Shown here: positions 1,096-39,587 of the stretch, piece by piece
How the letters are laid out: every line of letters starts with the position of its first letter
Numbering within the stretch: the stretch's first letter is position 1
Virus record (IMG/VR): IMGVR_UViG_3300037010_000715
Span: 1 to 39,587 of that record
Source: a virus
DNA: 39,587 nucleotides
Strand: one strand, 5' to 3'
The notes under the pieces: generated by a model
Told to the model about the DNA's origin: nothing
Databases searched by the model: none
The model's input: only the letters and a program-made list of their open reading frames with translations
Translations under genes and position numbers: made by a program

Positions 1096-1127
1096 TTTGT
1101 TTATTAAAATAATTATGTTTTAATTTG
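1096..1127 (+). promoter_or_regulatory. Bacteroidota-type early promoter (leader 1)
   Basis: A -33 box TTTG (1096-1099), a 20-base spacer and a -7 box TTAATTTG (1120-1127), one mismatch from TAnnTTTG. The same spacing recurs at 4042-4073 and 38896-38926, each time just before the same two-hairpin leader. The position of the transcription start is inferred. Confidence 0.65.
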
Positions 1128-1151: not shown

Positions 1152-1236
1152 ATTGGACGTTGCAGACCAATCAAAAATTTAGTCAAATAGACTAATAGAA
1201 CCCATTAGAACGAACTGCAACTCGTTTTAGTGGGTT
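1152..1236 (+). promoter_or_regulatory. Kissing-loop RNA leader, copy 1
   Basis: Hairpin 1 is ATTGG/CCAAT (1152-1156, 1167-1171) with a loop containing GTTGCAG (1159-1165). Hairpin 2 is a 15-bp stem with two G-U pairs (1199-1213 with 1222-1236) and an 8-base loop containing CTGCAAC (1215-1221), the exact complement of loop 1. Hairpin 2 is followed by a T-rich stretch and then, 17 bases on, the helicase ATG. Two further copies with different but internally complementary loops occur at 4077 and 38935. Function is inferred to be attenuation, antitermination or protein-mediated control. Confidence 0.75.
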
Positions 1237-3954: not shown

Positions 3955-4060
3955 TAAAATACAAAACGAATGTTACATAACGATTGACAATAAAAAATTA
4001 CAGATTAAACCTAGTAAATTTATGTTAAATAGTAAAATAAATTTGGATATTAAAAAGTAA
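3911..4060 (+). CDS. Hypothetical small protein (49 aa), overlapping
   Basis: A frame of 49 codons from an ATG inside the end of the 92-residue gene (44-base overlap). It is the only open frame covering 3955-4060. Its end contains the -33 box of the leader 2 promoter. The overlap is longer than usual here, so it may be a chance frame. Confidence 0.35.
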   Translation: MQNLETLNLPNASIDKIQNECYITIDNKKLQIKPSKFMLNSKINLDIKK

Positions 4061-4073
4061 TTGATTAATTTTG
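4042..4073 (+). promoter_or_regulatory. Bacteroidota-type early promoter (leader 2)
   Basis: TTTG at 4042-4045, 20-base spacer, and a perfect -7 box TAATTTTG at 4066-4073. It is the best of the three leader promoters and directly precedes the two-hairpin RNA. Confidence 0.72.
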
Positions 4074-4076
4074 TAA

Positions 4077-4158
4077 AGTTGTCTGGAAGCAACTCAATAA
4101 AAAAATTACTTAAAAACCTTCATTCTGCGTGTCTTCCAGCACAAAGTTTGGAGGTTTT
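4077..4158 (+). promoter_or_regulatory. Kissing-loop RNA leader, copy 2
   Basis: Hairpin 1: AGTTG/CAACT (4077-4081, 4090-4094) closing the 8-base loop TCTGGAAG. Hairpin 2: a 19-base arm pair (4113-4131 with 4140-4158) with two 2x2 internal loops, closing the 8-base loop TCTTCCAG. Seven loop bases, CTGGAAG and CTTCCAG, are complementary. A T-run follows and the next ATG is 16 bases after the stem. Same architecture as 1152 and 38935 with unrelated loop sequence. Confidence 0.78.
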
Positions 4159-4174
4159 TGCATTTAAAAAAAAT

Positions 4175-7777: not shown

Positions 7778-8254
7778 ATGGCAACAAAGCCAAATAAAGA
7801 AAATATTATAACTGAAATTCTTATACTACTTGAAAAGGGTATAAGTTACACTGAATGCATCAAAGTAATTCAAAGTAAATCAAAGTTAGTAGAATCAACT
7901 TTTGCGTCTTATTGGAAAATAGCCAATCAAAGACATTTAGAGGTGCAACAAGCCACGCAAAAAGCAATAGCTGAACAATCTACCGTTAATGACATAGAGC
8001 GTCTTAAAATCGGTATTTTAAATAAAACAGAGGCTTTGAAGATTTTAACTGAAATTGCAAAAGAACCTTTAAAAGAATCTGCTATGGGTATGGTTTCGGC
8101 TAAAACAGAACAAATATCAGCTATTAAAACTATTTCAGAGTTGCAAGGGTGGAATAGCCCTATTAAAACAGATAACACAAATGTTAATTTAAATAGTGAA
8201 TTATCTAAAGAAGATATTGATAAATTAGCTAAAAGTCTTAATGAAAAGTATTAA
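7778..8254 (+). CDS. terS: Terminase small subunit (putative)
   Basis: 158 residues directly upstream of the large terminase with a one-base overlap. The N-terminal 50 residues can form a helix-turn-helix (KGISYTECIKVI). The C-terminal AIKTISELQGWNSP segment matches the usual end of small terminases in this phage group. It would recognise phage DNA for packaging and load the large subunit. The assignment rests on context plus these two segments. Confidence 0.75.
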   Translation: MATKPNKENIITEILILLEKGISYTECIKVIQSKSKLVESTFASYWKIANQRHLEVQQATQKAIAEQSTVNDIERLKIGILNKTEALKILTEIAKEPLKESAMGMVSAKTEQISAIKTISELQGWNSPIKTDNTNVNLNSELSKEDIDKLAKSLNEKY

Positions 8255-9684
8255 TGACACCCGAATATATAAAAGAATTAAAGGTTGCTAAGTATCAATG
8301 CTTAACATCTACTTTATTTTTTTCTCGCTATTTCTTTAAAAAACGTTTCAATCGAAAATTTGTTATTGGTGAACATCATAAAATTATTTCAGATATTTTA
8401 GATAGAGTAATTAGTGGTGAATTAAAGAAAGTAATTATTAACATTGCGCCACGTTATGGAAAGACTGAATTAGCAGTTAAAAACTTTATTGCTCGCGGGT
8501 TATCAATTAATCCTAGTGCCAGATTTATACATTTATCTTATTCTGATGATTTAGCTTTGGATAATTCTGATGAGGTAAGGGAATTAATTAAAAGTGCTGA
8601 ATATCAGGAAATGTTCCCAAATGTTAAAATTAAGCCTAAATCAGATAGTAAAAAGAAATGGTATACTTCAGAAGATGGCGGAGTTTATGCTACAAGTGCT
8701 GCAGGTCAAGTAACTGGATTTGGAGCTGGTCAAGTTGACAATGAAGACGAAATTATAGATAGCTTCTTTGTTGGTAAAGATGGTCAATTATTTGGCGGTG
8801 CTTTAATTATTGACGACCCTATAAAACCAGAAGATGCCGATAGTGATAATGTTAGGGAGCGTGTTAACCAACGTTTTGATAGTACAATTCGTAATCGTGT
8901 TAATAGTAGAAATACGCCTATTATTATTATTATGCAAAGGTTACACGAAAAGGATTTGTGCGGATATTTAATTGATCAAGAGCCTGGCGAATGGACTGTA
9001 ATATCTTTACCATGCCTAAAAGAAGATGGGACTGCTTTATGGGAATTTAAGCATACGGTTGATGAACTAAATAAAATTAAAGCGAATAATAAAATTGTTT
9101 TTGAAAGACAATACCAGCAAAGCCCTAAGCCATTAGAGGGGCTAATGTTTCCAGAAAATGAGTTAAGATATTATAAACCAAATGATATATTGAAGTTTGA
9201 AACCTCAATAGCTTATGCGGATATTGCGGATGAAGGCGAAGATAATTTAAGCGCGCCAGTAGGTCGTAATATTGGAAGTGATATTTATATTACTGATGTT
9301 ACATTTTGTCGTGAAAATACAGGCGTTACTTTACCAATGGTAGCGGATATGTTTAAACGCAACTTAACTACTTATGCAAGGGTAGAAAGTAATGCTATGG
9401 GTGCCATGTTTAATCGTGAGTTAACTAAATTAGTGCCAAATACTAAATGTTTACCAGCTCATTCAAGTACTAATAAATTTACTCGTATTTTAATGGATGC
9501 GGTGTTTATTAAAAAATATTGTGTATTTATACATCCAGACTATCAAACATTACAATATAAAGCATTTATGAAAGAATTAACAAGTTATTTAGCTAATGGT
9601 AAAAGTAAGCATGATGATGCGCCTGACAGTATGAGTGGCTTAGCAATGTTTATTCGCGCAATGTTGCCTAAATATTATTTGTAA
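8254..9684 (+). CDS. terL: Terminase large subunit
   Basis: 476 residues. The ATPase domain has a Walker A-like APRYGKTE at 65-72 and Walker B LIIDDP at 184-189. The C-terminal RNase H-like nuclease has Asp323 in AYADIAD and a late acidic motif HDDAPD at 453-458. It drives DNA into the procapsid and cuts concatemers or headful lengths. The circularly permuted look of the contig fits headful packaging but does not prove it. The next structural gene, portal, is on the other strand, which is unusual. Confidence 0.93.
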   Translation: MTPEYIKELKVAKYQCLTSTLFFSRYFFKKRFNRKFVIGEHHKIISDILDRVISGELKKVIINIAPRYGKTELAVKNFIARGLSINPSARFIHLSYSDDLALDNSDEVRELIKSAEYQEMFPNVKIKPKSDSKKKWYTSEDGGVYATSAAGQVTGFGAGQVDNEDEIIDSFFVGKDGQLFGGALIIDDPIKPEDADSDNVRERVNQRFDSTIRNRVNSRNTPIIIIMQRLHEKDLCGYLIDQEPGEWTVISLPCLKEDGTALWEFKHTVDELNKIKANNKIVFERQYQQSPKPLEGLMFPENELRYYKPNDILKFETSIAYADIADEGEDNLSAPVGRNIGSDIYITDVTFCRENTGVTLPMVADMFKRNLTTYARVESNAMGAMFNRELTKLVPNTKCLPAHSSTNKFTRILMDAVFIKKYCVFIHPDYQTLQYKAFMKELTSYLANGKSKHDDAPDSMSGLAMFIRAMLPKYYL

Positions 9685-9817: not shown

Positions 9818-11041
9818 CTACTTACCAAACTGAGCAACCAAACGAGTATTTGCATCCTGCGGTGTAATAATACCACTACTTACCAAAGAATTTAAGGCAG
9901 TGCTAACAGTATTAAATGTATTTGCCGTTTCAACTTTATCAGTTTGTAAGTATGGTAAATGACTATAATCTAAGACTAATCGACTACCTTTATCAATACC
10001 TATAAAAGTACTTAAAGCCTGAGTAAATCCATCGGCATAAGGCACAACCGTATCGTTGTGCGTTTGAATTAATCCATGCTTTAGATTTTCATAAGTTGAA
10101 TTAATAAATAAGTTTTGATTAACTCCTAAAACGTTAAGAATAGTAATAAAATTAGCCTCTATTTGTTCCATTAACAACAAGTCTTTTGTTGGGTAACTCA
10201 TAGGTGACCACGTAACCGATCCAGTCGTAATATGTATTTTCTTTTGTCCGTCTTCTATTCCGTTTTCATTTCTATAAGTTGCTTCAAGTTCTTTTTTCTC
10301 TTCTGGCGTCATAGGCAATGCACCCATAGCATCTTTACTTTGAGAGCTTAACACGCCTATTCCACCTTTCTCAGTACTAATACAATTTAAGTATTGACTC
10401 GCAGCAACCGTATTACTTAAAGGGTATTTCATAGCTTGTAAAGGACTAAAACCAATTAAGTTATTATCTAAGTCGCTAATCTTTGACCATAAAATTTGAT
10501 TTACTTCGAAAGTTTTTTTAGTACCGTTTTCGTCATATTCATAATTACTTACAATACCTTCAAGTGTCACCTGATCGAATAATTTGCCAGTTAATTTAGG
10601 TTTAATATTTGCTGAACTAATATTTAATAAACTTTGTGGTGTAGTGCTTAATCTACTTGCGCTATTTTTATAAATGAACTGATTACCATATACGATAAGC
10701 TGAGTTAAGTATTGTTTTAAGAACGGGTTTTGCCCTTGTAATATGTTTGGATTCTCTAATAATTTAGCAACATCTGGAGGTAATGGCAATACTTCATTAC
10801 TACCTATTTTTTGTAGCATGAATTTACCATTTGCGAACATAGCCCCTAATTTATCTACTGGCGTTCTTAGTTGTGGAATGGTATTATACAAGTCGTAAGG
10901 TACTTGGGTATTAATATAAACCTCACCTTTATTTATTTGGTAATTAATTCGACTATCAAAATACTGTTTTCTTTGGTTCTTTTTATTAAACAAAGCACCA
11001 AAGCGCTCGATAAAGTTTAAATCTTGATAATTTGATTGCAT
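9818..11041 (-). CDS. Portal protein (HK97-type)
   Basis: 407 residues on the minus strand, of a length usual for HK97-type portals. The N-terminal part has VPYDLYNTIPQLRTPVDKLG. The middle has the conserved ISDLDNNLIGFSPLQAM stretch and the C-terminal third has LMEQIEANFITILNVLGVN and YENLKHG, all typical portal segments. It forms the dodecameric ring for DNA entry and tail joining. Every other recognised gene here is on the plus strand; the portal alone is inverted between terL and the protease. It therefore needs its own transcript, probably from the -7 box at 11079-11086. Confidence 0.88.
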   Translation of the reverse strand: MQSNYQDLNFIERFGALFNKKNQRKQYFDSRINYQINKGEVYINTQVPYDLYNTIPQLRTPVDKLGAMFANGKFMLQKIGSNEVLPLPPDVAKLLENPNILQGQNPFLKQYLTQLIVYGNQFIYKNSASRLSTTPQSLLNISSANIKPKLTGKLFDQVTLEGIVSNYEYDENGTKKTFEVNQILWSKISDLDNNLIGFSPLQAMKYPLSNTVAASQYLNCISTEKGGIGVLSSQSKDAMGALPMTPEEKKELEATYRNENGIEDGQKKIHITTGSVTWSPMSYPTKDLLLMEQIEANFITILNVLGVNQNLFINSTYENLKHGLIQTHNDTVVPYADGFTQALSTFIGIDKGSRLVLDYSHLPYLQTDKVETANTFNTVSTALNSLVSSGIITPQDANTRLVAQFGK

Positions 11042-11271: not shown

Positions 11272-12107
11272 TGGATATTCCAAACTTTGATACTCACGAA
11301 AAACTTTTTAAATTCCTTAAGGAAAATAAGAGTTTATTAATTGCAAATAAAAAGTCAGGCATGAAACGTGCCGATTCAGTTTCTTTTAAACCGCCTGTTG
11401 AAAAATCACAAAGTAACAAAGCTGGATTAGATGTTTTAGAAACTGTTGACTTAGAAAAAATAAAAGTTAGTGTTGTAATTAATACCACTAATATAATGGA
11501 TTCACATGATGACGTCCACATGGTTGGTATTTGGAATAAATCACTAAAAGAACAACGCTCACTATATTTATTGCAAGAGCATCAAATGACATTCGATAAT
11601 ATAATTACTGATGAATTAGATGCCTCAGTAAAAATGTTATCATGGAAGGCTTTAGGTTTTCCAGAGTTTATGGGTACTACTCAATCATTAATATTTGATG
11701 CAATAATTGACTCCGACCGTAACGAAAAGATGTTTGATAATTATCTAAAAGGATATGTTAAAAATCATTCAGTTGGTATGCAATACGTTAATCTTTATTT
11801 ATGTATGAATTCTAAAGAGTCTATGTATAGTGAAGAGAAATCGAATTGGGATAAATATATTTTACAAGTAGTTAATTCAGATAAAGCAATTGAGAAAGGA
11901 TATTTTTGGGCAGTTACAGAAGCTAAAATTATTGAAGGCTCAGCCGTTCCAATTGGTTCTAATTATGCAACTCCTACACTTTCAGTAAGTGCAACAAATA
12001 TTATTGAAGCCGAAACTATCACTTCAAGTAAAACAGAGCCGTTGAAAAACACTCAATTAATCAAAGAACAATTATATTATTTAACTAACAATTTAAAACT
12101 ATCGTAA
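11271..12107 (+). CDS. Prohead maturation protease (putative)
   Basis: 278 residues immediately before the major capsid gene, sharing one base with it. Family-like signatures are EHQM (His104), NHSVGM (His166, Ser167) and IIEGSAVPIGSNYATP near residues 216-231, as in HK97-type (U35/S78) prohead proteases with a Ser-His catalytic pair. It would cleave the N-terminal scaffolding part of the capsid protein during maturation. The long C-terminal tail after the core is probably removed by self-cleavage. Confidence 0.82.
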   Translation: MDIPNFDTHEKLFKFLKENKSLLIANKKSGMKRADSVSFKPPVEKSQSNKAGLDVLETVDLEKIKVSVVINTTNIMDSHDDVHMVGIWNKSLKEQRSLYLLQEHQMTFDNIITDELDASVKMLSWKALGFPEFMGTTQSLIFDAIIDSDRNEKMFDNYLKGYVKNHSVGMQYVNLYLCMNSKESMYSEEKSNWDKYILQVVNSDKAIEKGYFWAVTEAKIIEGSAVPIGSNYATPTLSVSATNIIEAETITSSKTEPLKNTQLIKEQLYYLTNNLKLS

Positions 12108-13354
12108 TGAACGAAGAACAAATCGCAGCGCAAAACGCGCTTATAGTAAAATTAAAAGCAGAAGTTGAAGGGCTTATTGCATCAAAAAACTTCGCTGGAT
12201 TAGCTGAGGTAGAATTATTAAAAAAAGGTTTAGAAGCTTCTATTAAAGCAGAAGATTTTGAAGCTGTAAAAGTAGAGGCTATTCGTTTAGCTTCAGAAGT
12301 TAAAGCCTTAAAAGAAAATTCAAGTAACTTTGATAAAGATAAATCTTTAAAAGGTCAATTAACTAAATTTATTAATGATAACCACGAAAAAATTAAACAA
12401 GCGTTCCATTCTGGGTCGGGTGTTGTTGAGTTTAAAGTGGTAGGTGATATGTCAACAGCTTCTGCAACTGTTCCCGATGGTATTCCAACATTACAAGGGG
12501 TTCAGGTTGCGCCTCCTTCAAATGTTAATTTGCGTACAACTATTACTGATGGATTAGTTTCTGTTTTTAACACTAACTTAGCATCTTATCCGTATACTGA
12601 AACATCTGCAAAAGATGGCGATTATACTTTTTTATTAGAAGGTGGTACTAAGCAAGAGATTGACTTTACAATCGCTACACGTTATGCAGCGCCTAAGAAA
12701 TTAGCAGCATGGGAAAAATTAACAGAAGAGTCTATTAATGATATCCCCGGTTTAATTTCAATTGCATACGATTACTTAAGAAAAAAACATGATTTAAAAC
12801 GCCAAAACGGCATTTTATTTGGTGACGGTATAGGAGCTAATTTAAAAGGAGCTACAACTTACGGACGTGTATTTAGTGCTGGTGCATTAGCTAATACAGT
12901 AGTAAGTCCTAACTTTATGGATGTTGTAAATGCTGCAATTACAGATATTTTCACAACTCATAATTATACTGACGAAATGCCTTACATGGCTAACTTAGTA
13001 ATGATACACCCAAATGATTTTTATACGCAATTAGTTGCTGCTAAAGATGGTTTTGGTCATCCATTATATCCAATGGCTTCTTTATTTAACCGTGTTGTAA
13101 TTGGTGGTGCTACTATCGTACCATTTGAAGACATTCCAACTGGTAAAATATTTGTAGCGGATATGAGTAAGTACAACACTACTAACTTTGTTCCATACAC
13201 AGTAAAAATTGGTGTTGTTAATGATGACTTTATTAAAAATCAATTTGTTATTTTAGGAGAAAGCCGTTTACATGGCTTCGTTAAAAAACTAGATGAACAA
13301 GCATTTTTGTATGACGATATCGCTACAATTAAAGCAGCAATTACTTTAGTATAA
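12107..13354 (+). CDS. Major capsid protein (HK97 fold)
   Basis: 415 residues. The first 105 or so form a charged coiled coil, the delta/scaffold domain usually clipped by the protease. The rest has the HK97 capsid pattern, including VNLRTTITDG, WEKLTEESINDIPGL, a long spine-helix region and FGDG. It follows the protease with a one-base overlap. A GC-rich hairpin comes seven bases after the stop, consistent with partial termination that sets high capsid yield. Confidence 0.9.
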   Translation: MNEEQIAAQNALIVKLKAEVEGLIASKNFAGLAEVELLKKGLEASIKAEDFEAVKVEAIRLASEVKALKENSSNFDKDKSLKGQLTKFINDNHEKIKQAFHSGSGVVEFKVVGDMSTASATVPDGIPTLQGVQVAPPSNVNLRTTITDGLVSVFNTNLASYPYTETSAKDGDYTFLLEGGTKQEIDFTIATRYAAPKKLAAWEKLTEESINDIPGLISIAYDYLRKKHDLKRQNGILFGDGIGANLKGATTYGRVFSAGALANTVVSPNFMDVVNAAITDIFTTHNYTDEMPYMANLVMIHPNDFYTQLVAAKDGFGHPLYPMASLFNRVVIGGATIVPFEDIPTGKIFVADMSKYNTTNFVPYTVKIGVVNDDFIKNQFVILGESRLHGFVKKLDEQAFLYDDIATIKAAITLV

Positions 13355-32177: not shown

Positions 32178-32329
32178 TGGAAATAATAATAGGCAATGAA
32201 TACAGATATTGCAATAATATAGATTGTATTGTAATAAAAAAAGATAGTACTCATGTTTTAATTAAATTAAATAATAGTACTTTATTAGCAACACCACACA
32301 GTTTACTTGATATTAACTATAAAAACTAA
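32177..32329 (+). CDS. Hypothetical beta-rich protein (50 aa)
   Basis: 50 residues, beta-like, beginning MEIIIGNEYRY with an SH3-like feel. It starts on the last base of the previous stop codon. No family assigned. Confidence 0.5.
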   Translation: MEIIIGNEYRYCNNIDCIVIKKDSTHVLIKLNNSTLLATPHSLLDINYKN

Positions 32330-32333
32330 AACT

Positions 32334-32588
32334 ATGAAAGACCAATTATTAAACGAAGGTTTAACCGCCACAGAAAACAAGCACATGACAATCTCAGACT
32401 TAAAGACGGGTTTGTTGTTAGTATTAGGGTTTCTTTTATGTATTGCAATTTGCACTACTGGACACTACTATACAAAGGCTAAAAATATGGAGCATCGATT
32501 TAATCAATGTAGTGAAATCGAAGCTATTAATCAAGCAACGATTAACGAACTTACTCACGATAATATGAATCTTGTTAATGCGAAATAA
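32334..32588 (+). CDS. Single-pass membrane protein (84 aa)
   Basis: 84 residues with a transmembrane helix at about 26-43 (LLLVLGFLLCIAICTTG) and a charged C-terminal part. The ATG at 32334 is used because the in-frame TTG at 32307 lies within the preceding gene. Its stop codon forms part of the first attC-like site, so it marks the phage-array boundary. Confidence 0.6.
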   Translation: MKDQLLNEGLTATENKHMTISDLKTGLLLVLGFLLCIAICTTGHYYTKAKNMEHRFNQCSEIEAINQATINELTHDNMNLVNAK

Positions 32589-32667
32589 GGGACGGGGCTT
32601 GTAGCTGAAATAAACCTAACAACGCTATTTTAACACTTCCGCTTTTTGCCACAAGGTTGTGTTAGTT
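32583..32667 (+). repeat. attC1 (left end, R'' degenerate)
   Basis: R' is GTTAGTT (32661-32667). GCCACAAGG pairs with the left-arm CTTGTAGC region. The R'' position reads AAATAAG instead of xxxxAAC and coincides with the stop of the membrane-protein gene. The site is nearly identical to attC7 over about 72 bases. Confidence 0.65.
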
Positions 32668-32701
32668 TACAGTAAAATAAACCAAATTAAAATAAAAAAA
32701 T

Positions 32702-32983
32702 ATGAATTATCAATCACAAGAAGAACACGATTATTATGAAAACGGAGCTGCACAAGTGCAGGCTGAATATGAACAACAAGAGTCTTATTATGAATTTTTA
32801 AATCAGTTAATTAAAAACGAAAAATATCAACTGCACGCTATTTATGTTGCTTTAGACACGTTAAGTAGTGCTGGAAATAAAGATTTTAATCCTGCAATGA
32901 GTTTTTTAGTTGATTTAAAAAATATATTAGAAATACCAAAAGAGCCAATTACACAAAAAGATATTGATGAAATGCCTTTTTAG
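32702..32983 (+). CDS. Cassette 1 cargo: hypothetical acidic protein (93 aa)
   Basis: 93 residues, very acidic and Tyr/Gln/Glu-rich at the N terminus (EEHDYYENGAAQVQAEYEQQ), then helical. The acidic charge and size would suit a DNA-mimic or inhibitor protein, but that is speculation. It is the only gene between attC1 and attC2. Confidence 0.65.
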   Translation: MNYQSQEEHDYYENGAAQVQAEYEQQESYYEFLNQLIKNEKYQLHAIYVALDTLSSAGNKDFNPAMSFLVDLKNILEIPKEPITQKDIDEMPF

Positions 32984-33034
32984 CAAAACTATATCAGCAT
33001 CAGAAAAGTAAACATCAAAGGTTTATTTTATTGA

Positions 33035-33127
33035 AACTAACGGTTGGCAATATGAAACGGTTGCCTTGTAAGACGTTTCAATTTTAGTAATAGCTTAATG
33101 GCAACTGTTTTATATTGCTTGTTAGGA
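33035..33127 (+). repeat. attC2
   Basis: R'' AACTAAC, R' GTTAGGA. Arms GCAATATGAAACGGTTGCC and GGCAACTGTTTTATATTGC pair over 19 bases with two G-U pairs. R'' is complementary to the start of cassette 1 (AGTT). Confidence 0.85.
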
Positions 33128-33142
33128 ACAGTACGATTTATT

Positions 33143-33313
33143 ATGGAACAATTAACTTGGAAAATTGATTTAAACGCTAAATGCCCACATTGTGGGGAGG
33201 AAGATACACACACGTTTTATTTAAACGCAGATACTTTAATTTGTGATAAATGCAATAAAGAGTTTAATATCGAATTGTGGGCGAAAGATATTGAGGTAAG
33301 ATGCAGTAAGTAA
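33143..33313 (+). CDS. Cassette 2 cargo: zinc-ribbon protein (56 aa)
   Basis: 56 residues with CPHC (Cys14, Cys17) and CDKC (Cys35, Cys38), a four-cysteine zinc ribbon. Small ribbons of this kind bind nucleic acid or proteins. The ATG at 33143 lies after the attC2 R' box; a longer in-frame start at 33098 lies within the attC2 arm and is less likely. Confidence 0.65.
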   Translation: MEQLTWKIDLNAKCPHCGEEDTHTFYLNADTLICDKCNKEFNIELWAKDIEVRCSK

Positions 33314-33323
33314 TTTTTATTGT

Positions 33324-33453
33324 GTCTAACGTTCCGCAGCTAAACGAGGTGGCGTTTTCCACTACAAAATATTATTAAAAACACAAATTATGAATACAGA
33401 AAAAATGCCCTTAGAAAACAAAAATGAGCCATCTTGTTTAGGTGCTGTTAGCG
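33324..33453 (+). repeat. attC3
   Basis: R'' GTCTAAC, R' GTTAGCG. Arms GCAGCTAAACGAGGTGGC and GCCATCTTGTTTAGGTGC pair along most of 18 bases. The central spacer is long and contains the start codon of the next ORF. R'' is not a perfect complement of the cassette 2 start (AGGA). Confidence 0.82.
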
Positions 33454-33599
33454 GTAGTGCTTTTGAAAAAATAATTAAATTATATGAAAACTCTTTAAAT
33501 TGGGATTTTGATGGTACAGCATGGTTGAGTGCAACGAATTATGAGGAATCGCAGAAAGAATTTAAAGAACAATTAATAAAAATACTAAACACTCTTTAG
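33390..33599 (+). CDS. Cassette 3 cargo: hypothetical protein, ORF starts inside attC3
   Basis: 69 codons starting at an ATG in the attC3 spacer. About 20 residues are encoded by the attC itself and the frame runs through the R' box into cassette 3. There is no in-frame ATG after the cassette boundary, so the cargo is either translated from the attC or is a truncated gene. The cassette part reads FEKIIKLYENSLNWDFDGTA. Unknown function. Confidence 0.5.
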   Translation: MNTEKMPLENKNEPSCLGAVSGSAFEKIIKLYENSLNWDFDGTAWLSATNYEESQKEFKEQLIKILNTL

Positions 33600-33605
33600 T
33601 ATTAC

Positions 33606-33682
33606 CGCTAACGTTAAAAATAAACGATGGTGGCGTATGCGGTTACATAATTTCAGCCACTATTGTTTATTGATTGTTGCCA
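33606..33682 (+). repeat. attC4
   Basis: R'' CGCTAAC, R' GTTGCCA. Arms AATAAACGATGGTGGC and GCCACTATTGTTTATT pair over 16 bases with two G-U pairs. TACCGCT before AAC complements AGCGGTA at the start of cassette 3. Confidence 0.85.
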
Positions 33683-33712
33683 GTAGTACGGATTTTTAAA
33701 ACAAATTATTTT

Positions 33713-34564
33713 ATGAATGTATTAAGTTTATTTGATGGTATGAGTTGCGGACAGATTGCACTCGATAATTTAGGAATAAAAGTAGATAATTACTTTGCTA
33801 GTGAAATTAAAAAACACGCAATACAATGTACTAAAGATAATTTTCCAAACACAAAACATATTGGAGATGTAACGAAAGTAAAAGCTATTGATTTGCCTAA
33901 AATTGATTTGTTGATAGGTGGAAGTCCTTGTCAAGATTTTAGTCGTGCAAATAGTGTTCGTGATGGTTTACAGGGTATGAAATCAATGTTATTTTATGAA
34001 TACATACGATTACTTGAAGAAACGAAACCAAAATACTATTTACTCGAAAATGTGATAATGGATGATATAGGCTACAGTACAATATCCGATTTATTAGGAA
34101 CTGAACCTGTAAGATTATGCGGATCGAAAGTAAGCGGGGCATTAAGAGATAGATTGTTCTGGACTAATATTGGACCTGAAAGATTTGATTTGTTTGGAAA
34201 CCGAAAAAGTGCAATACCACAACCGAGAGATAAAAAAATATTATTGAATGATGTTTTAGAATACGGATATTCAGACAAAAAGAAACATACTTGTTTAAAT
34301 ACAAGTTGTGGCCGAGATGCTAACCAAAGATATATGTTGCACCGATACGCAACTACTGGAATGACAACAATAATTTATACAGACGAAACTATGGATGAAA
34401 GTAAAGGAGTGAGATATTGCACTCAAACAGAATTAGAAAAACTGCACAATATCCCAATAGGTTATACAAAAAACCTAAATAAAGCGCAAGCTGGTAATTT
34501 AATAGGCGATGGTTGGAATGTAGGGATTGTGGAGCACATTTTCTCTTATATGCAATTAACGTAG
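33713..34564 (+). CDS. Cassette 4 cargo: DNA C5-cytosine methyltransferase
   Basis: 283 residues with the ordered motifs of the family: motif I FDGMSCG at 7-13, motif IV GGSPCQDFS with catalytic Cys73, motif VI ENV at 112-114, a DRLFW motif VIII-like element, and the C-terminal GNLIGDGWNVGIVEHI of motifs IX-X. The target-recognition part is short. It would methylate cytosine to 5-methylcytosine, protecting DNA from host restriction. It is the largest cargo and the only clear enzyme with a known reaction. The ATG at 33713 follows attC4 by 30 bases; the earlier in-frame TTG lies inside attC4. Confidence 0.92.
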   Translation: MNVLSLFDGMSCGQIALDNLGIKVDNYFASEIKKHAIQCTKDNFPNTKHIGDVTKVKAIDLPKIDLLIGGSPCQDFSRANSVRDGLQGMKSMLFYEYIRLLEETKPKYYLLENVIMDDIGYSTISDLLGTEPVRLCGSKVSGALRDRLFWTNIGPERFDLFGNRKSAIPQPRDKKILLNDVLEYGYSDKKKHTCLNTSCGRDANQRYMLHRYATTGMTTIIYTDETMDESKGVRYCTQTELEKLHNIPIGYTKNLNKAQAGNLIGDGWNVGIVEHIFSYMQLT

Positions 34565-34570
34565 TATTAC

Positions 34571-34664
34571 TGGCAACGGTTGGGTGTATGAGAAGGTTTG
34601 CTTATATAAACTTTCAAATTACCACTAAACTTAATAGCAAACTTTCTTATACACCTTGTTATAA
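34571..34664 (+). repeat. attC5
   Basis: R'' TGGCAAC, R' GTTATAA. Arms GGTGTATGAGAAGGTTTGC and GCAAACTTTCTTATACACC pair over 19 bases with two G-U pairs. TACTGGC before AAC complements GCCAGTA at the start of cassette 4. Confidence 0.87.
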
Positions 34665-34688
34665 GTATGTAAATTAAATTTATTAGAT

Positions 34689-34889
34689 ATGGAAACACAA
34701 CACAAATACAATGCTTGGAAAGCCAAATCAAATGGCGAACCAATAGAAGGGACTGATAGAATATTTAATGGTGTTAGCAAAAGAGCAATAATTAAACATT
34801 TGGCTTTCGAGGAAGATGTTGAACATCAACATAATGATATGATAGTTAGATGTAAAGATGGAACAATGTGGTGTGTTTCTCAAATTTAA
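34689..34889 (+). CDS. Cassette 5 cargo: hypothetical protein (66 aa)
   Basis: 66 residues with AWKAKSNGEPIEG, an acidic middle (EEDVEHQHND) and a beta-like end. No family recognised. Single gene between attC5 and attC6. Confidence 0.6.
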   Translation: METQHKYNAWKAKSNGEPIEGTDRIFNGVSKRAIIKHLAFEEDVEHQHNDMIVRCKDGTMWCVSQI

Positions 34890-34897
34890 TTTATTAC

Positions 34898-34977
34898 TTA
34901 TAACGTTACGAAGCTAAAAGCTGACCGCCTTTATTATCGGTTAGGTGATGGCGGTTTGATTTTAGATTGTGTTAGGT
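34898..34977 (+). repeat. attC6
   Basis: R'' TTATAAC, R' GTTAGGT. CCGCC/GGCGG and CTAAAA/TTTTAG pair across an internal loop. TACTTAT before AAC complements ATAAGTA at the start of cassette 5. Confidence 0.8.
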
Positions 34978-35036
34978 GTCTGGTTTTAAAACGAATGAGT
35001 GCAAATAGAATAGTAAAACATATAATTTAAAGTAAA

Positions 35037-35270
35037 ATGGAAAAAAAGAAAAAATATCAATTCCTGTTTTTTTATACAGATTCTGGCGAATGCGGAGAAA
35101 CTAAAGAATACTTGGCTAGTAGTATTAAAACAGCTTGTAGAAAATTTCATAATTGGAGAGAAAACACAAGAAACGAAAGACCTTTTGATGTATTGGATTA
35201 TGAAGTGAGATTAGGTGAAGACTTTATTAATATATCAGAAATAGAAATAATAAAAAAATATTTAAACTAG
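35037..35270 (+). CDS. Cassette 6 cargo: hypothetical protein (77 aa)
   Basis: 77 residues, Lys-rich start then FLFFYTDSGECGE, a helix with CRKFHNWRE, and an acidic end. It looks like a compact alpha/beta fold. No family recognised. About 45 bases separate its stop from attC7, longer than in most cassettes. Confidence 0.6.
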   Translation: MEKKKKYQFLFFYTDSGECGETKEYLASSIKTACRKFHNWRENTRNERPFDVLDYEVRLGEDFINISEIEIIKKYLN

Positions 35271-35315
35271 CTACAACGTTATATAAACACAGGTGGGGAG
35301 GGTTTTAAAACTTGC

Positions 35316-35400
35316 ACATAACGGACGGGGCTTGTGGCTGAAATAAACCAAACAACGCTATTTTAGCACTTCTGCTTTTTGCCACAAGGTTGTGTTATAA
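35316..35400 (+). repeat. attC7
   Basis: R'' ACATAAC, R' GTTATAA. CTTGTGGC pairs with GCCACAAG. The inner region matches attC1 at all but about four of 72 bases. R'' is one base off the complement of the cassette 6 start (AGGT). Confidence 0.8.
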
Positions 35401-35432
35401 GCCGTTTATTATTAACGATAAAACCAAATAAA

Positions 35433-35726
35433 ATGATAGTAGATAATATTGGATATTTAAACTTAGAATCTGTTTCAGAATTGGGACATTTTTCAATTTA
35501 CGAAACACATAAGAAAACACAAATACTTGTGAAAAATACAAGTGAAGAAAAACTTACACTTTATTTACCCGATAAAAGTAGATTAGAATTTAAAACAGTT
35601 GAGGATAAAAAGATAGTTAGCGGAGTAAAAGTTTTTGACTCTAAAACAGATTCATTAACCAATATTGATACGGCTAAATGGAATGGGGGGAAACAGATAA
35701 TGTCATACGAAGAATACTATCGTTAA
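35433..35726 (+). CDS. Cassette 7 cargo: hypothetical protein (97 aa)
   Basis: 97 residues, beta-rich (GHFSIYETHKKTQILVK) with the end YEEYYR. The ATG at 35433 is 33 bases after attC7; an in-frame TTG at 35379 is inside the attC arm. Unknown family. Confidence 0.6.
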   Translation: MIVDNIGYLNLESVSELGHFSIYETHKKTQILVKNTSEEKLTLYLPDKSRLEFKTVEDKKIVSGVKVFDSKTDSLTNIDTAKWNGGKQIMSYEEYYR

Positions 35727-35731
35727 ATGGC

Positions 35732-35815
35732 TTATAACGGTTTGCAGCTACACGCAGTTAAAAATAGCGTGGGCATCAGCAAGGGATTTTTAATTGCTTG
35801 TAGGTGCTGTTAGGC
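35732..35815 (+). repeat. attC8
   Basis: R'' TTATAAC, R' GTTAGGC. Arms CAGTTAAAAAT and ATTTTTAATTG are the core of a 20-base imperfect stem. GGCTTAT before AAC complements ATAAGCC at the start of cassette 7. Confidence 0.87.
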
Positions 35816-35862
35816 GATGCTTTTCTTCGGTCAATTTAGTAACAATTTAAAACAAATATAAA

Positions 35863-36300
35863 ATGTCAAACAAAAACAAAATTTTTCTCGGTGGAACTTG
35901 TGCCGAAACAACTTGGAGAAAAGAGTTGATTAGTAAATTAAATTCTATTCCTTATTTCAACCCTGTTGTTGAAGATTGGACACCTGAATGTCAAGCAGTA
36001 GAAATTCAAGAAAAAGAATTTGAATGCAATATTCACTTTTACTGTATAACCAAAGAAATGCAAGGTGTGTTTTCTATTGCAGAAGTTGTGGATAGTGTTC
36101 ATAATAGATTTAAACGAACAATTTTACACGTTATTCCTGATGGATTTGAAAAGGGGCAAATAAAGTCTTTACAAGCAGTTGTTGACTTAATAAATTCTCG
36201 TGGTGGAACTGCTTATGTAGATAATGATTTGTCAAGGTCTGCTCGTGTTCTTAATTACTCATTTTCAAATTACGATGATGCTGTTCAGAGTATCGCCTAA
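35863..36300 (+). CDS. Cassette 8 cargo: nucleoside 2-deoxyribosyltransferase-like protein
   Basis: 145 residues starting with IFLGGTCAETTWRKELI, followed by FNPVVEDWTPECQ, an acidic EIQEKEFEC and a GVFSIAEVVDS helix: the layout of nucleoside 2-deoxyribosyltransferase domain proteins. Such proteins exchange bases on deoxyribonucleosides or serve as nucleotide sensors; activity here is unproven. Its stop codon overlaps the R'' box of attC9, so the cassette is almost all gene. Confidence 0.75.
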   Translation: MSNKNKIFLGGTCAETTWRKELISKLNSIPYFNPVVEDWTPECQAVEIQEKEFECNIHFYCITKEMQGVFSIAEVVDSVHNRFKRTILHVIPDGFEKGQIKSLQAVVDLINSRGGTAYVDNDLSRSARVLNYSFSNYDDAVQSIA

Positions 36301-36372
36301 CGTTATCTAGCCTTGCTTAGTTTGGCTATAAGCAGTTATATAATGCCAAATTGAGCAAGGGTTGTGTTAGTT
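36295..36372 (+). repeat. attC9
   Basis: R'' GCCTAAC, R' GTTAGTT. Arms CCTTGCTTAGTTTGGC and GCCAAATTGAGCAAGG pair over 16 bases with two G-U pairs. ATCGCCT before AAC complements AGGCGAT at the start of cassette 8. Confidence 0.88.
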
Positions 36373-36402
36373 TTTAGGCACTTAATTAAATATAAAAAGA
36401 AT

Positions 36403-36732
36403 ATGAAAATGAAAATAAAAGAAGCAGAATTTAAAACAGTAATGCGTGAATGCAAAGAAAAAATATCAGATTGTATTTATGGATGCGATGAGTGTAAAAA
36501 AGAATTTGAGTCAGACTCTAAATTATCAATAGATATTTTTAGTCAATCTGATAGTACAGAAAATTTAGATTTTTGCTCTTGGGTATGTTTATTAAAACAC
36601 CTACCAAAAGTAGAATGTAATTACTTTGTTAATTTACCTTATTTAAGTTACGATAGCAAAACTAAAGGATGTAACGCTAGTGATTTTATTAACGCAATAG
36701 GTAAAGTTTCCAATAATAGTAATAGTGCTTGA
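36403..36732 (+). CDS. Cassette 9 cargo: cysteine-rich protein (109 aa)
   Basis: 109 residues with CKEKISDCIYGCDECKKEF near the N terminus and two later cysteines (FCSWVC), which could form a zinc site. The ATG at 36403 is used; the in-frame TTG at 36364 lies in attC9. Function unknown. Confidence 0.6.
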   Translation: MKMKIKEAEFKTVMRECKEKISDCIYGCDECKKEFESDSKLSIDIFSQSDSTENLDFCSWVCLLKHLPKVECNYFVNLPYLSYDSKTKGCNASDFINAIGKVSNNSNSA

Positions 36733-36864
36733 AACTAACGGTTCAGGTATTGCCGAAGGCAGGGATTTGAAAGACGAAAGTTTCAACCTTGCACAAATGC
36801 CCAATAGAAGTATAAATGATTAATTAACCGATAATGCCCTGCTTTTGGCAATACCTTGTTAGGT
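36733..36864 (+). repeat. attC10
   Basis: R'' AACTAAC, R' GTTAGGT, about 132 bases. Arms GGTATTGCCGAAGGCAGGG and CCCTGCTTTTGGCAATACC pair over 19 bases. AAACT before AAC complements AGTTT at the start of cassette 9. Confidence 0.88.
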
Positions 36865-36892
36865 GCAGTGCTTCTCACAAACTTAAATAAAA

Positions 36893-37087
36893 ATGGAATA
36901 CTTAAAAATTGCAGAAATCGCTAACAAATGCGAAGTTAAACATCAACAAATTAGCGAACATTACAGAATGATTGGTGCAAACAACCAATTTACAGATGAA
37001 GTTAGAAATGTCTTTTACGCTGACATTAAAGATATGGAGCGTGATTTGAAAACATTAGAAGGTAAACTTAGCAAGTATGTCAAATAG
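36893..37087 (+). CDS. Cassette 10 cargo: hypothetical helical protein (64 aa)
   Basis: 64 residues, all helix, with EVKHQQISEHYRMIG in the first half and a charged coiled end. No family recognised. Confidence 0.6.
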   Translation: MEYLKIAEIANKCEVKHQQISEHYRMIGANNQFTDEVRNVFYADIKDMERDLKTLEGKLSKYVK

Positions 37088-37093
37088 CATTGC

Positions 37094-37173
37094 ACCTAAC
37101 GTTTTGCAGATAATGGCTGGCGGCTTTTTAGCAAACAAAGTATGTAGCCGCTTGACATTAGGTGCTGTTATAG
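37094..37173 (+). repeat. attC11
   Basis: R'' ACCTAAC, R' GTTATAG. TAATG/CATTA and GCGGC/GCCGC pair around an internal loop. TGCACCT before AAC complements AGGTGCA at the start of cassette 10. Confidence 0.84.
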
Positions 37174-37225
37174 GTAGTGCCAAAAGTAAAGACTAAAAGA
37201 ATATTAATAATTAAAACTATAAAAA

Positions 37226-37525
37226 ATGGAAGATTATATTAGTAAAATAGTACAAGATGCTGCTAAAAATTTACAAATTGAAAAGGAAAGACTAATTAAA
37301 TTAAGGATTAAAGAACGTGTTAATGAAGATGTTGATTTAATTTTAGAAGCTCAAAAAAGATTTTCAAAAATAGGTAGAGAGTTTCATTCAAACGACCAAA
37401 GCGAACATTGGTATTGGAACGATGGAACTGAAAATGGATTACATTTAATTAGTTTTTATCAAGATTTTGAGCAGGATTTAATGAGTAAAGATTACAAATT
37501 TAATGCAGGTTTTAAATATCGTTAA
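37226..37525 (+). CDS. Cassette 11 cargo: hypothetical protein (99 aa)
   Basis: 99 residues: an N-terminal charged helix (KERLIKLRIKERVNED), then aromatic-rich sequence with SEHWYWNDGTENG. No family recognised. Confidence 0.6.
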   Translation: MEDYISKIVQDAAKNLQIEKERLIKLRIKERVNEDVDLILEAQKRFSKIGREFHSNDQSEHWYWNDGTENGLHLISFYQDFEQDLMSKDYKFNAGFKYR

Positions 37526-37552
37526 TTATATAAGAAGGTTAAAAGGCATTAC

Positions 37553-37643
37553 ATATAACGGTTTGCGGCTAAAAGCAGTTGCCTATTAACAAATACTGCT
37601 TGATAACACGCTTATCTGCAATTGCTTTTAGCCTTTGTTATAA
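37553..37643 (+). repeat. attC12
   Basis: R'' ATATAAC, R' GTTATAA. Arms GGCTAAAAGCAGTTGC and GCAATTGCTTTTAGCC pair over 16 bases. GGCATTACATAT complements ATAGGTAGTGCC at the start of cassette 11 at 10 of 12 positions. Confidence 0.88.
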
Positions 37644-37663
37644 GCTGATTAAATTTTTTAGTG

Positions 37664-37930
37664 ATGGGGAAAATGACAAAAGAAAAAGCAGAAAAAGTAT
37701 ATGAATTACTTGTAAGCATAGGTGGTGCATATGAGCCAGAAAAAGATAGTTTTATTTACCACCATACAGAAAGTAAAGATGGATGTGGTGAATGGCGTTT
37801 TTCGGGTAAACTTGGATTCGGTGGTAAATACCGAAGTGGTTATAATAGAGTAGATTGTTACAGAGAAGATGAAACGACTGAAATGATTAAATTAATGGAT
37901 GAACTTAACGGTGCGTTGGCAAAAATTTAA
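37664..37930 (+). CDS. Cassette 12 cargo: hypothetical protein (88 aa)
   Basis: 88 residues with a helical start (MTKEKAEKVYELL), then FIYHHTES, CGEWRFSGKLGFGGKYRSG and a C-terminal helix. Possible starts are GTG 37661, ATG 37664 and ATG 37673. No family recognised. Confidence 0.6.
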   Translation: MGKMTKEKAEKVYELLVSIGGAYEPEKDSFIYHHTESKDGCGEWRFSGKLGFGGKYRSGYNRVDCYREDETTEMIKLMDELNGALAKI

Positions 37931-37935
37931 TTTGC

Positions 37936-37994
37936 ATATAACTACTCGCTAAGACTACCTAAAGAAAATAGTATTGATAATCAATAAGTTATAA
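37936..37994 (+). repeat. attC13, half-site at right end of the array
   Basis: R''-like ATATAAC (37936-37942) starts TATAACTACTCGCTAA, also found at 31716-31731. A GTTATAA lies at 37988-37994, but the intervening arms do not pair. It looks like a truncated attC or the right junction with phage DNA. The following 37995-38070 holds only AT-rich sequence with a near-consensus -7 box TATCTTTA (38045-38052). Confidence 0.5.
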
Positions 37995-38070
37995 TATAAT
38001 TAACTAATTTCGTTATATAATTATTATATATCAAATATATTATATATCTTTACAAAAAATATATAAAACT

Positions 38071-38895: not shown

Positions 38896-38926
38896 TTGCA
38901 CAATTAAAAAAGATTAATTAATTTTA
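38896..38926 (+). promoter_or_regulatory. Bacteroidota-type early promoter (leader 3)
   Basis: TTG (38896-38898; CTTG instead of TTTG), a 20-base spacer and -7 box TAATTTTA (38919-38926), one mismatch. Same spacing as leaders 1 and 2. Confidence 0.6.
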
Positions 38927-38934
38927 CCGAGTTG

Positions 38935-39012
38935 GACGGTGGAGCGTCATATCAAACAACTAAAATTTTAACCCGATTGCCTGAGGAACTCCACTTCCAA
39001 AGGCGTCGGGTT
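38935..39012 (+). promoter_or_regulatory. Kissing-loop RNA leader, copy 3
   Basis: Hairpin 1: GACG/CGTC (38935-38938, 38945-38948) with loop GTGGAG. Hairpin 2: AACCCGA pairs with TCGGGTT, then a bulge, TGCCT/AGGCG, a 2x2 loop and GG/CC, presenting CTCCAC (38989-38994). Six loop bases are complementary. TTTCTTATTT follows as in leader 1, and the ERF start is 22 bases after the stem. Confidence 0.74.
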
Positions 39013-39034
39013 TCTTATTTAAAAACAAATCATT

Positions 39035-39568
39035 ATGGAAAACAAAACTATTGAAACGTGCTTAATGCAATTTCAAACAGAGATTGGAATCATTAAAAAA
39101 GATTCTAAAAACCCACATTTTAAAAATACCTATGCTAGTTTAGGTCAAATACTAAGCGAAGTAAAACCTATTTTAACAAAGTGTGGATTAGTATTATTAC
39201 AACCTATTGATGCTAATGGTGTTACTACTAAAATATTAATGGCTGGAGGCTCAGAAACGGACTTTGTAGAATCGTTTATTCCTTTACCTATTGGATTAGC
39301 ACCGCAACCTTTAGGCTCTGCAATTACTTATTATAGACGTTATACGTTAAGTTCATTACTAGCTTTAGAAATTGATGATGATGATGCTAGTATGGCTAGT
39401 AAGCCAGTAGAACAAAAACCAACCGCAAACGAAGTAGATTTAGTAAATTCTAAAATAATAAACGCTAAAACACTTGAAGAGTTACAAACTATGTTTAAAG
39501 CATTAACTCCATTAGAGCAAAGAATAGCTACTGAATTAAAAGATAAATTAAAATTAACACTTAAATAA
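39035..39568 (+). CDS. erf: ERF-family single-strand annealing protein
   Basis: 177 residues with the ERF core: NPHFKNTYASLGQIL at about residues 28-42, VKPILTKCGL, and GSAITYYRRYTLSSLLALEIDDDDA at about 90-114. ERF proteins coat single-stranded DNA and anneal complementary strands in phage recombination. They fit with the RusA-like resolvase downstream across the circular junction. It is the first gene behind leader 3. The C-terminal 44 residues are repeated at 2-136. Confidence 0.92.
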   Translation: MENKTIETCLMQFQTEIGIIKKDSKNPHFKNTYASLGQILSEVKPILTKCGLVLLQPIDANGVTTKILMAGGSETDFVESFIPLPIGLAPQPLGSAITYYRRYTLSSLLALEIDDDDASMASKPVEQKPTANEVDLVNSKIINAKTLEELQTMFKALTPLEQRIATELKDKLKLTLK

Positions 39569-39587
39569 AATGGAAGGCACAACACAT
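39433..39587. repeat. Terminal direct repeat, right copy
   Basis: Matches bases 1-155 with one silent difference at 39559. Joining the two gives a continuous operon from ERF into the 52-residue gene at 138. Confidence 0.9.
39570..39587 (+). CDS. Start of the 52-residue gene (repeat copy)
   Basis: Six codons identical to the start of the gene at 138-296, cut by the end of the contig. Confidence 0.7.

Follow-up and report, generated by a model that had tools for sequence, protein, structure and literature searches.

Predicted kissing-loop terminator leaders at the heads of replication and recombination operons in Flavobacterium-type phages

Operons for replication and recombination in tens of phages are preceded by a leader in which the loop of a promoter-proximal hairpin is complementary to the loop of an intrinsic-terminator-like hairpin, and in Flavobacterium-type phages this leader looks like a widespread, so far undescribed RNA on/off control. 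Our comparisons show that the predicted RNA structure of the leaders is under selection and tied to the leader terminator. The reading that we favour, at a probability of roughly 50%, is that the element stands at the 5′ head of a phage replication/recombination operon and attenuates its transcription in cis, with the kiss between the two loops favouring read-through. Transcription control in Bacteroidota phages is almost uncharted. The leader recurs in isolated, culturable phages (hattifnatt, snusmum, sniff, Tenacibaculum JQ and Cellulophaga phi10:1), and natural compensatory pairs permit a clean test of whether a kiss on a terminator switches genes on or off without a metabolite, a question that arises equally for the guanidine-IV riboswitch.

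The window, the whole stretch of 39,587 nucleotides that was analysed, is a 39.6 kb phage genome in which genes for terminase, portal and major head protein were found. Comparison of the contig ends showed that positions 1-155 and 39433-39587 are alike with one mismatch, which suggests a circular map or terminal redundancy; with these near-identical ends joined, the ERF, helicase and primase operons adjoin across the junction. The features of the three leaders are collected in Table 1. For copy 3, ahead of the ERF gene, a first-pass annotation of the DNA had described a GACG-GTGGAG-CGTC hairpin and a bulged long hairpin presenting CTCCAC, and both were found. Unconstrained minimum free energy (MFE) folding of 38929-39020 gives loops that are exactly GUGGAG and CUCCAC, at −29.8 kcal/mol (z −3.9), a stability reached by none of 200 shuffles, and a second closing layer of hairpin 1 (GTTG/CAAC, 38930-38961) is possible. 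The −7 element is an imperfect fit to the Bacteroidetes promoter consensus, TTTG/TANNTTTG (PMC6847099), and 23 nt separate hairpin 2 from the ERF start codon. An exact 6-nt complement between MFE loops arose in 2 of 2,000 shuffles of this leader, and the leader score was matched in dinucleotide shuffles 1 time in 3,000 for copy 3, 0 in 3,000 for copy 1 and 2 in 3,000 for copy 2.

Table 1. Predicted features of the three window leaders and their downstream genes, and positions of leaders in isolated phages
Feature	Position	Strand	Details and basis
Copy 3 promoter	38896-38926	+	TTGC (−33), spacer, TAATTTTA (−7); Bacteroidetes type; sequence
Copy 3 hairpin 1	38935-38948	+	GACG-GTGGAG-CGTC; folding and sequence
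Copy 3 kissing word, hairpin 1 loop	38939-38944	+	GTGGAG; folding and sequence
Copy 3 hairpin 2	38970-39012	+	bulged, intrinsic-terminator-like; folding, terminator scan
Copy 3 kissing word, apical loop of hairpin 2	38989-38994	+	CTCCAC; folding and sequence
Copy 3 terminator tail	39011-39020	+	T-rich, TTTCTTATTT; sequence
ERF-family single-strand annealing protein gene	39035-39568	+	Pfam PF04404, E=9.8e-19; first gene past copy 3 leader
Copy 1 promoter	1096-1127	+	TTTG-N-TAATTTG
Copy 1 hairpin 1	1153-1170	+	loop word GTTGCAG, 1159-1165; folding and sequence
Copy 1 hairpin 2	1199-1236	+	loop word CTGCAAC, 1215-1221; T-tail 1235-1245; helicase ATG next
Helicase gene downstream of copy 1	ATG 1254	+	Pfam Helicase_C/DEAD
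Copy 2 promoter	4042-4073	+	TTTG-N-TAATTTTG
Copy 2 hairpin 1	4077-4094	+	word CTGGAAG, 4083-4089; folding and sequence
Copy 2 hairpin 2	4113-4158	+	word CTTCCAG, 4133-4139; T-tail 4155-4165; small-ORF ATG next
Small ORF downstream of copy 2	ATG 4175	+	followed by replication initiator and primase-helicase genes
Leaders in Flavobacterium phage hattifnatt9-1	9358 and 14334		
Leaders in Flavobacterium phage snusmum6-1	9708 and 14684		
Leader in Flavobacterium phage sniff9-2	13525		
Leader in Flavobacterium phage FCV-1	40354		
Leader in Tenacibaculum phage JQ	35961		stem-only covariance model
Leader in Cellulophaga phage phi10:1	10253		stem-only covariance model

Copies 1, 2 and 3 follow one plan with different loop words (GTTGCAG, CTGGAAG and GTGGAG), and their stems have no common sequence; in copy 2 the overlap of the MFE loops is just 5 nt, and the 7-nt word takes in closing bases. 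The resemblance that had been pointed out between the ends of copies 3 and 1 is present (TCGGGTTTCTTATTT), but the terminators of these leaders end in such a tail in general, not just in those two. The annotation had further placed the three operons under a single RNA-based control, perhaps exerted by a common protein or by RNA polymerase itself. The first part stands insofar as a kissing-loop terminator leader lies ahead of all three consecutive operons, beyond chance, and is kept in many relatives. The shared controller fares less well, since each leader has its own loop word and the loop code is therefore private to each. Early timing, attenuation and antitermination are plausible for the three operons.

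A promoter-anchored scan of 100 loci of relatives, drawn from the window and IMG/VR, gave 30 sites scoring at least 45, where shuffles gave 0.7, and 25 sites at 48 or above, where shuffles gave none. With more loci and whole phage genomes added, 51 distinct matches reached the cut-off, and dropping the doubtful ones left 43. The kissing words are mostly 6-10 nt long with a usual separation of 38-51 nt, and behind the leaders lie SNF2-type helicases, ERF, and replication/primase-like, methyltransferase-like and endonuclease-like ORFs, most of them assigned from N-terminal sequence only. Nekkels_1 holds weaker candidates, and a BLAST search of phage records with the ERF leader gave no match. The leader is not a property of the ERF gene, a possibility that we rejected: ERF orthologues mostly lack it and have coding upstream regions, so that it belongs to operon heads. 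The RefSeq helicase starts of hattifnatt (9441; L101, NC_048832.1) and snusmum (9791; L102, NC_048841.1) fall inside the leader's terminator hairpin, and homology together with the leader puts the helicase ATG at ~9483 and ~9833, respectively.

The leaders of the window belong to class A, in which the hairpin 1 loop is made of 1-2 bases and a 6-7 nt word and the stem is variable. In class B, hairpin 1 has a conserved stem, AGTTAC...GTAACT, and an 8-nt word with a 6-nt A/T-rich linker after it, and hairpin 2 has two unpaired bases 5′ of its word, usually starting with A; the stem, the A-rich linker and the kiss-flanking bases of this class are kept in sequence, beyond mere pairing. Some leaders (L007, L021) are without hairpin 1. 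Longer complements to the terminator loop are found in L028 (13 nt, upstream of 3778) and in L090 and L098 (~10 nt, upstream of the helicase gene); these have no clear hairpin 1 and possibly form a third leader class. Many class-B terminators carry an internal loop, UGA/GGA (or UGA), between the outer and the inner stem, possibly with tandem G-A pairs or a kink-turn-like bend, and this could be a protein site or could let the short linker span the stack.

Pairing of the two loops is strongly supported. The class-B pattern AGTTACN6ACANNNTAGTAACT, which leaves downstream sequence unconstrained and does not require complementarity, occurs at 31 distinct places in IMG/VR, 23 of them with a promoter just upstream. 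An exact 8/8 loop complement lies 32-39 nt past the stem in 22 of these 23, the one exception being truncated by its contig end, and in none of the eight promoter-less matches; loops swapped among class-B leaders as a control gave no 8/8 match. Across 26 aligned class-B leaders, pairing of the kiss helix is 100%, and double changes occur at five of its eight pairs, although the alignment holds leaders collected with the complement required, so that the class-B pattern and a stem-only model are the cleaner tests. One pair occurs as GC, CG, AU and UA across the same 26 leaders, slid structures reach an overall pairing of only 25-48%, and the covariation score of the kiss is 0.486, compared with 0.146 for shuffles and 0.03-0.09 for slid structures. 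The stem-only covariance model, from which the kiss was left out, found leaders in Tenacibaculum phage JQ, phi10:1, L153/L155 (L153 being an IMG/VR contig), L004 and one Flavobacteriaceae MAG contig, every one with an exact partner of 7-10 nt; its sole match with no partner is non-significant (E 0.16). Moreover, the leaders at hattifnatt 14334 and snusmum 14684 are near-identical, and both kissing words have changed in concert (GTGAGACG/CGTCTCAC versus GTGGAACG/CGTTCCAC).

Two further leaders, L112 (2555-2659) and L139 (5972-6077), are ~5% different elsewhere and have kissing words that differ at four of eight positions on both sides (GCTTCGAC versus GTTCTCAC), a block exchange of the loop code. 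Faster evolution of the kissing words, as in an immunity-type diversification, is unsupported overall, with only isolated block changes such as those of L139 and hattifnatt/snusmum.

The element looks phage-borne. The strict class-B pattern with a promoter has no match in 84,980 bacterial and archaeal genomes, and the covariance model R1 matched a single genome among 299 from one Bacteroidota family (that of a Lutibacter MAG), on a small phage-like contig; we therefore rejected a host regulon for class B, the class that these searches reach, class A having no usable sequence pattern.

Past hairpin 2 the leaders have a median of 6 U among the next 8 nt, and the leaders fit the Bacteroidetes attenuator layout, with a promoter upstream, a GC-rich hairpin with a U-tract, and a start codon shortly downstream. 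We located terminators blind to their loops and scored as a partner any complement of at least 6 nt upstream. A partner is present for 36 of the 75 terminators with an upstream promoter and a downstream ATG (2.1% when shuffled), for 24 of 621 elsewhere that have no promoter, and for 1 of 31 with a promoter and no ATG; leader terminators have a partner ~12 times as often as other terminators. About half of the terminator-like sites with promoter and ATG have no partner, and many of these look like chance calls. Taken as predictions, the promoter, the two hairpins, the terminator signature, the loop complementarity with compensatory evolution, and the restriction to leaders are all shown to be in place.

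In the attenuator that we favour, RNA polymerase would start at the Bacteroidetes-type promoter and have completed hairpin 1 by ~25 nt. It would go on to the 5′ arm and loop of hairpin 2, which, with its U-tract, would form an intrinsic terminator whose end lies 15-50 nt upstream of the first start codon. On its emergence the terminator loop would pair with the hairpin 1 loop in a kissing helix of 6-10 bp, and the rigid complex would most likely delay or strain the closing of the outer terminator stem and thus let some polymerases read through; with the kiss absent or disturbed, transcription would stop and a leader RNA of ~90 nt would be released. We infer the direction of the effect, its trigger and its timing, as well as a working terminator, a kiss that promotes read-through and not termination, and a factor or kinetic condition that sets the balance.

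Antitermination by the kiss is favoured by the architecture of the guanidine-IV riboswitch (mepA/GGAM-1) and by the linker geometry of class B. In guanidine-IV the loop of a 5′ hairpin pairs with the loop of an intrinsic-terminator hairpin and read-through is raised (PMC7736828, PMC11611296); its authors propose that the two kissing hairpins stretch the linker and that the outer terminator pairs fail, leading to antitermination (PMC7736828). The class-B linkers, at 10-13 nt, cannot bridge hairpin 1, kiss and full terminator when these are stacked in a straight line, whereas those of copy 1 (26 nt) and copy 2 (16 nt) are long enough for kiss and full terminator to stack straight, and in copy 3 the fit hinges on the forming of the outer hairpin 1 layer; some MFE-based linker values are over-folded (e.g. 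L014, L008:4097) and not for use singly. With geometry so mixed, kiss and terminator are not necessarily mutually exclusive, and since the kissing words are confined to the loops, clear of the terminator stem, the structure by itself would allow a stabilising role just as well.

Such a role is the basis of the alternative that survives best, in which the kiss clamps the terminator loop and raises termination, and the true output is the compact, nuclease-resistant leader of ~90 nt, as a small RNA of the phage. It would suit class A, where both hairpins and the kiss can coexist, and the fully paired loops with unpaired flanking bases, which recall stable kissing complexes. We nevertheless consider it unlikely, as the leader always lies a few tens of nucleotides ahead of a gene of the same operon, promoter-driven terminators with no following ATG have that single partner among 31, and private loop words do not suggest one common RNA product.

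About as doubtful is a leader of the put or nut kind, held together by the kiss, whose binding to RNA polymerase or to a phage protein confers terminator resistance at hairpin 2 and further downstream. The put RNA of phage HK022, two stem-loops of ~70 nt just past an early promoter, binds RNA polymerase and in this way affects terminators downstream (PMC9378689); like our leaders it stands right after a phage promoter, and it is an RNA-only control of termination in cis. The sequence conservation of class B is what would be expected if something reads the stem, linker and flanking bases, but class A, including the three window copies, has none. Furthermore, put is not described with loop-loop pairing or with a terminator hairpin of its own, let alone with its target terminator as the second hairpin (PMC9378689), and the specific tie of our leaders to a terminator loop would be left unexplained.

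Less probable again is protection of the mRNA 5′ end or a translation-level leader, the kiss shielding that end or shaping the start-codon region and the U-tract being incidental. Hairpin 1 does start within a few nucleotides of the expected start site, and in L007 and L021 a bare 5′ segment is predicted to pair with the terminator loop. However, a simple 5′ hairpin would be enough for protection, nearly all leaders have a terminator-grade stem and U-tract, and partners are concentrated at leader terminators. Chance complementarity of short words in AT-rich hairpins, picked by eye, is already refuted by compensatory evolution and excluded by the shuffles, the class-B pattern, covariation, the blind terminators and the stem-only model, even though an unconstrained scan of the window for hairpin pairs, which we discarded as too noisy in AT-rich DNA also with T-tail filters, yields hundreds of trivial matches.

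A bolder form of the attenuator reading, which we regard as improbable, would make the leaders a large family, so far undescribed, of kinetic switches that consist of RNA only and need no ligand. Each Flavobacteriia phage replication operon would have a loop-loop 'lock' of its own on its terminator, tuned by the speed of leader synthesis and possibly addressable in trans by released leaders. If true, trans action of released leader RNAs could allow copy number to be sensed, or phages that share a word to exclude one another.

Loop complementarity also controls premature termination in P4 CI RNA, P1 c4 and the attenuation systems of plasmids pT181 and pIP501. There it acts in trans via antisense RNA, whereas both partners of the phage leaders lie in one leader, within ~45 nt. 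The kissing complexes of HIV-1 DIS and RNAI/RNAII, which are intermolecular, have fully paired loops of 6-8 nt with unpaired purines beside the kiss; our leaders are like them in loop size, full pairing and the unpaired purines but unrelated in sequence and function. With guanidine-IV the leaders share the pairing of a 5′ hairpin loop with a terminator hairpin loop. They differ from it in their pairing of 6-10 bp, their leader-specific words, which vary freely in pairs, and the lack of a conserved ligand pocket; downstream lie helicase, ERF, replication and nuclease genes in Flavobacteriia phages instead of guanidine exporters. An Rfam 15 cmscan of the whole window at gathering scores returned only a tRNA, the collection being one that may or may not hold guanidine-IV, and permissive scans of copy 3 and the class-B loci gave only irrelevant weak matches. 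By these comparisons the phage leaders appear to be RNA attenuators with a kissing loop, outside the guanidine-IV and put families, and a literature search covering few subscription papers and no supplements found no description of such leaders in Bacteroidota phages.

Elsewhere in the window, the portal gene (9818-11041) is on the minus strand between the plus-strand genes for terminase (8254-9684) and major head protein (12107-13354), an inversion or an unusual layout. The region 32300-38070 contains about a dozen small ORFs spaced by imperfect inverted repeats of 80-150 nt, whose ends, e.g. TATAACGGTTTGCAG...GCTGTTAGGC, are similar to integron attC sites. This is possibly a gene-cassette array within a phage, and it holds a C5 cytosine methylase domain (33674-34561) and a nucleoside deoxyribosyltransferase-like protein.
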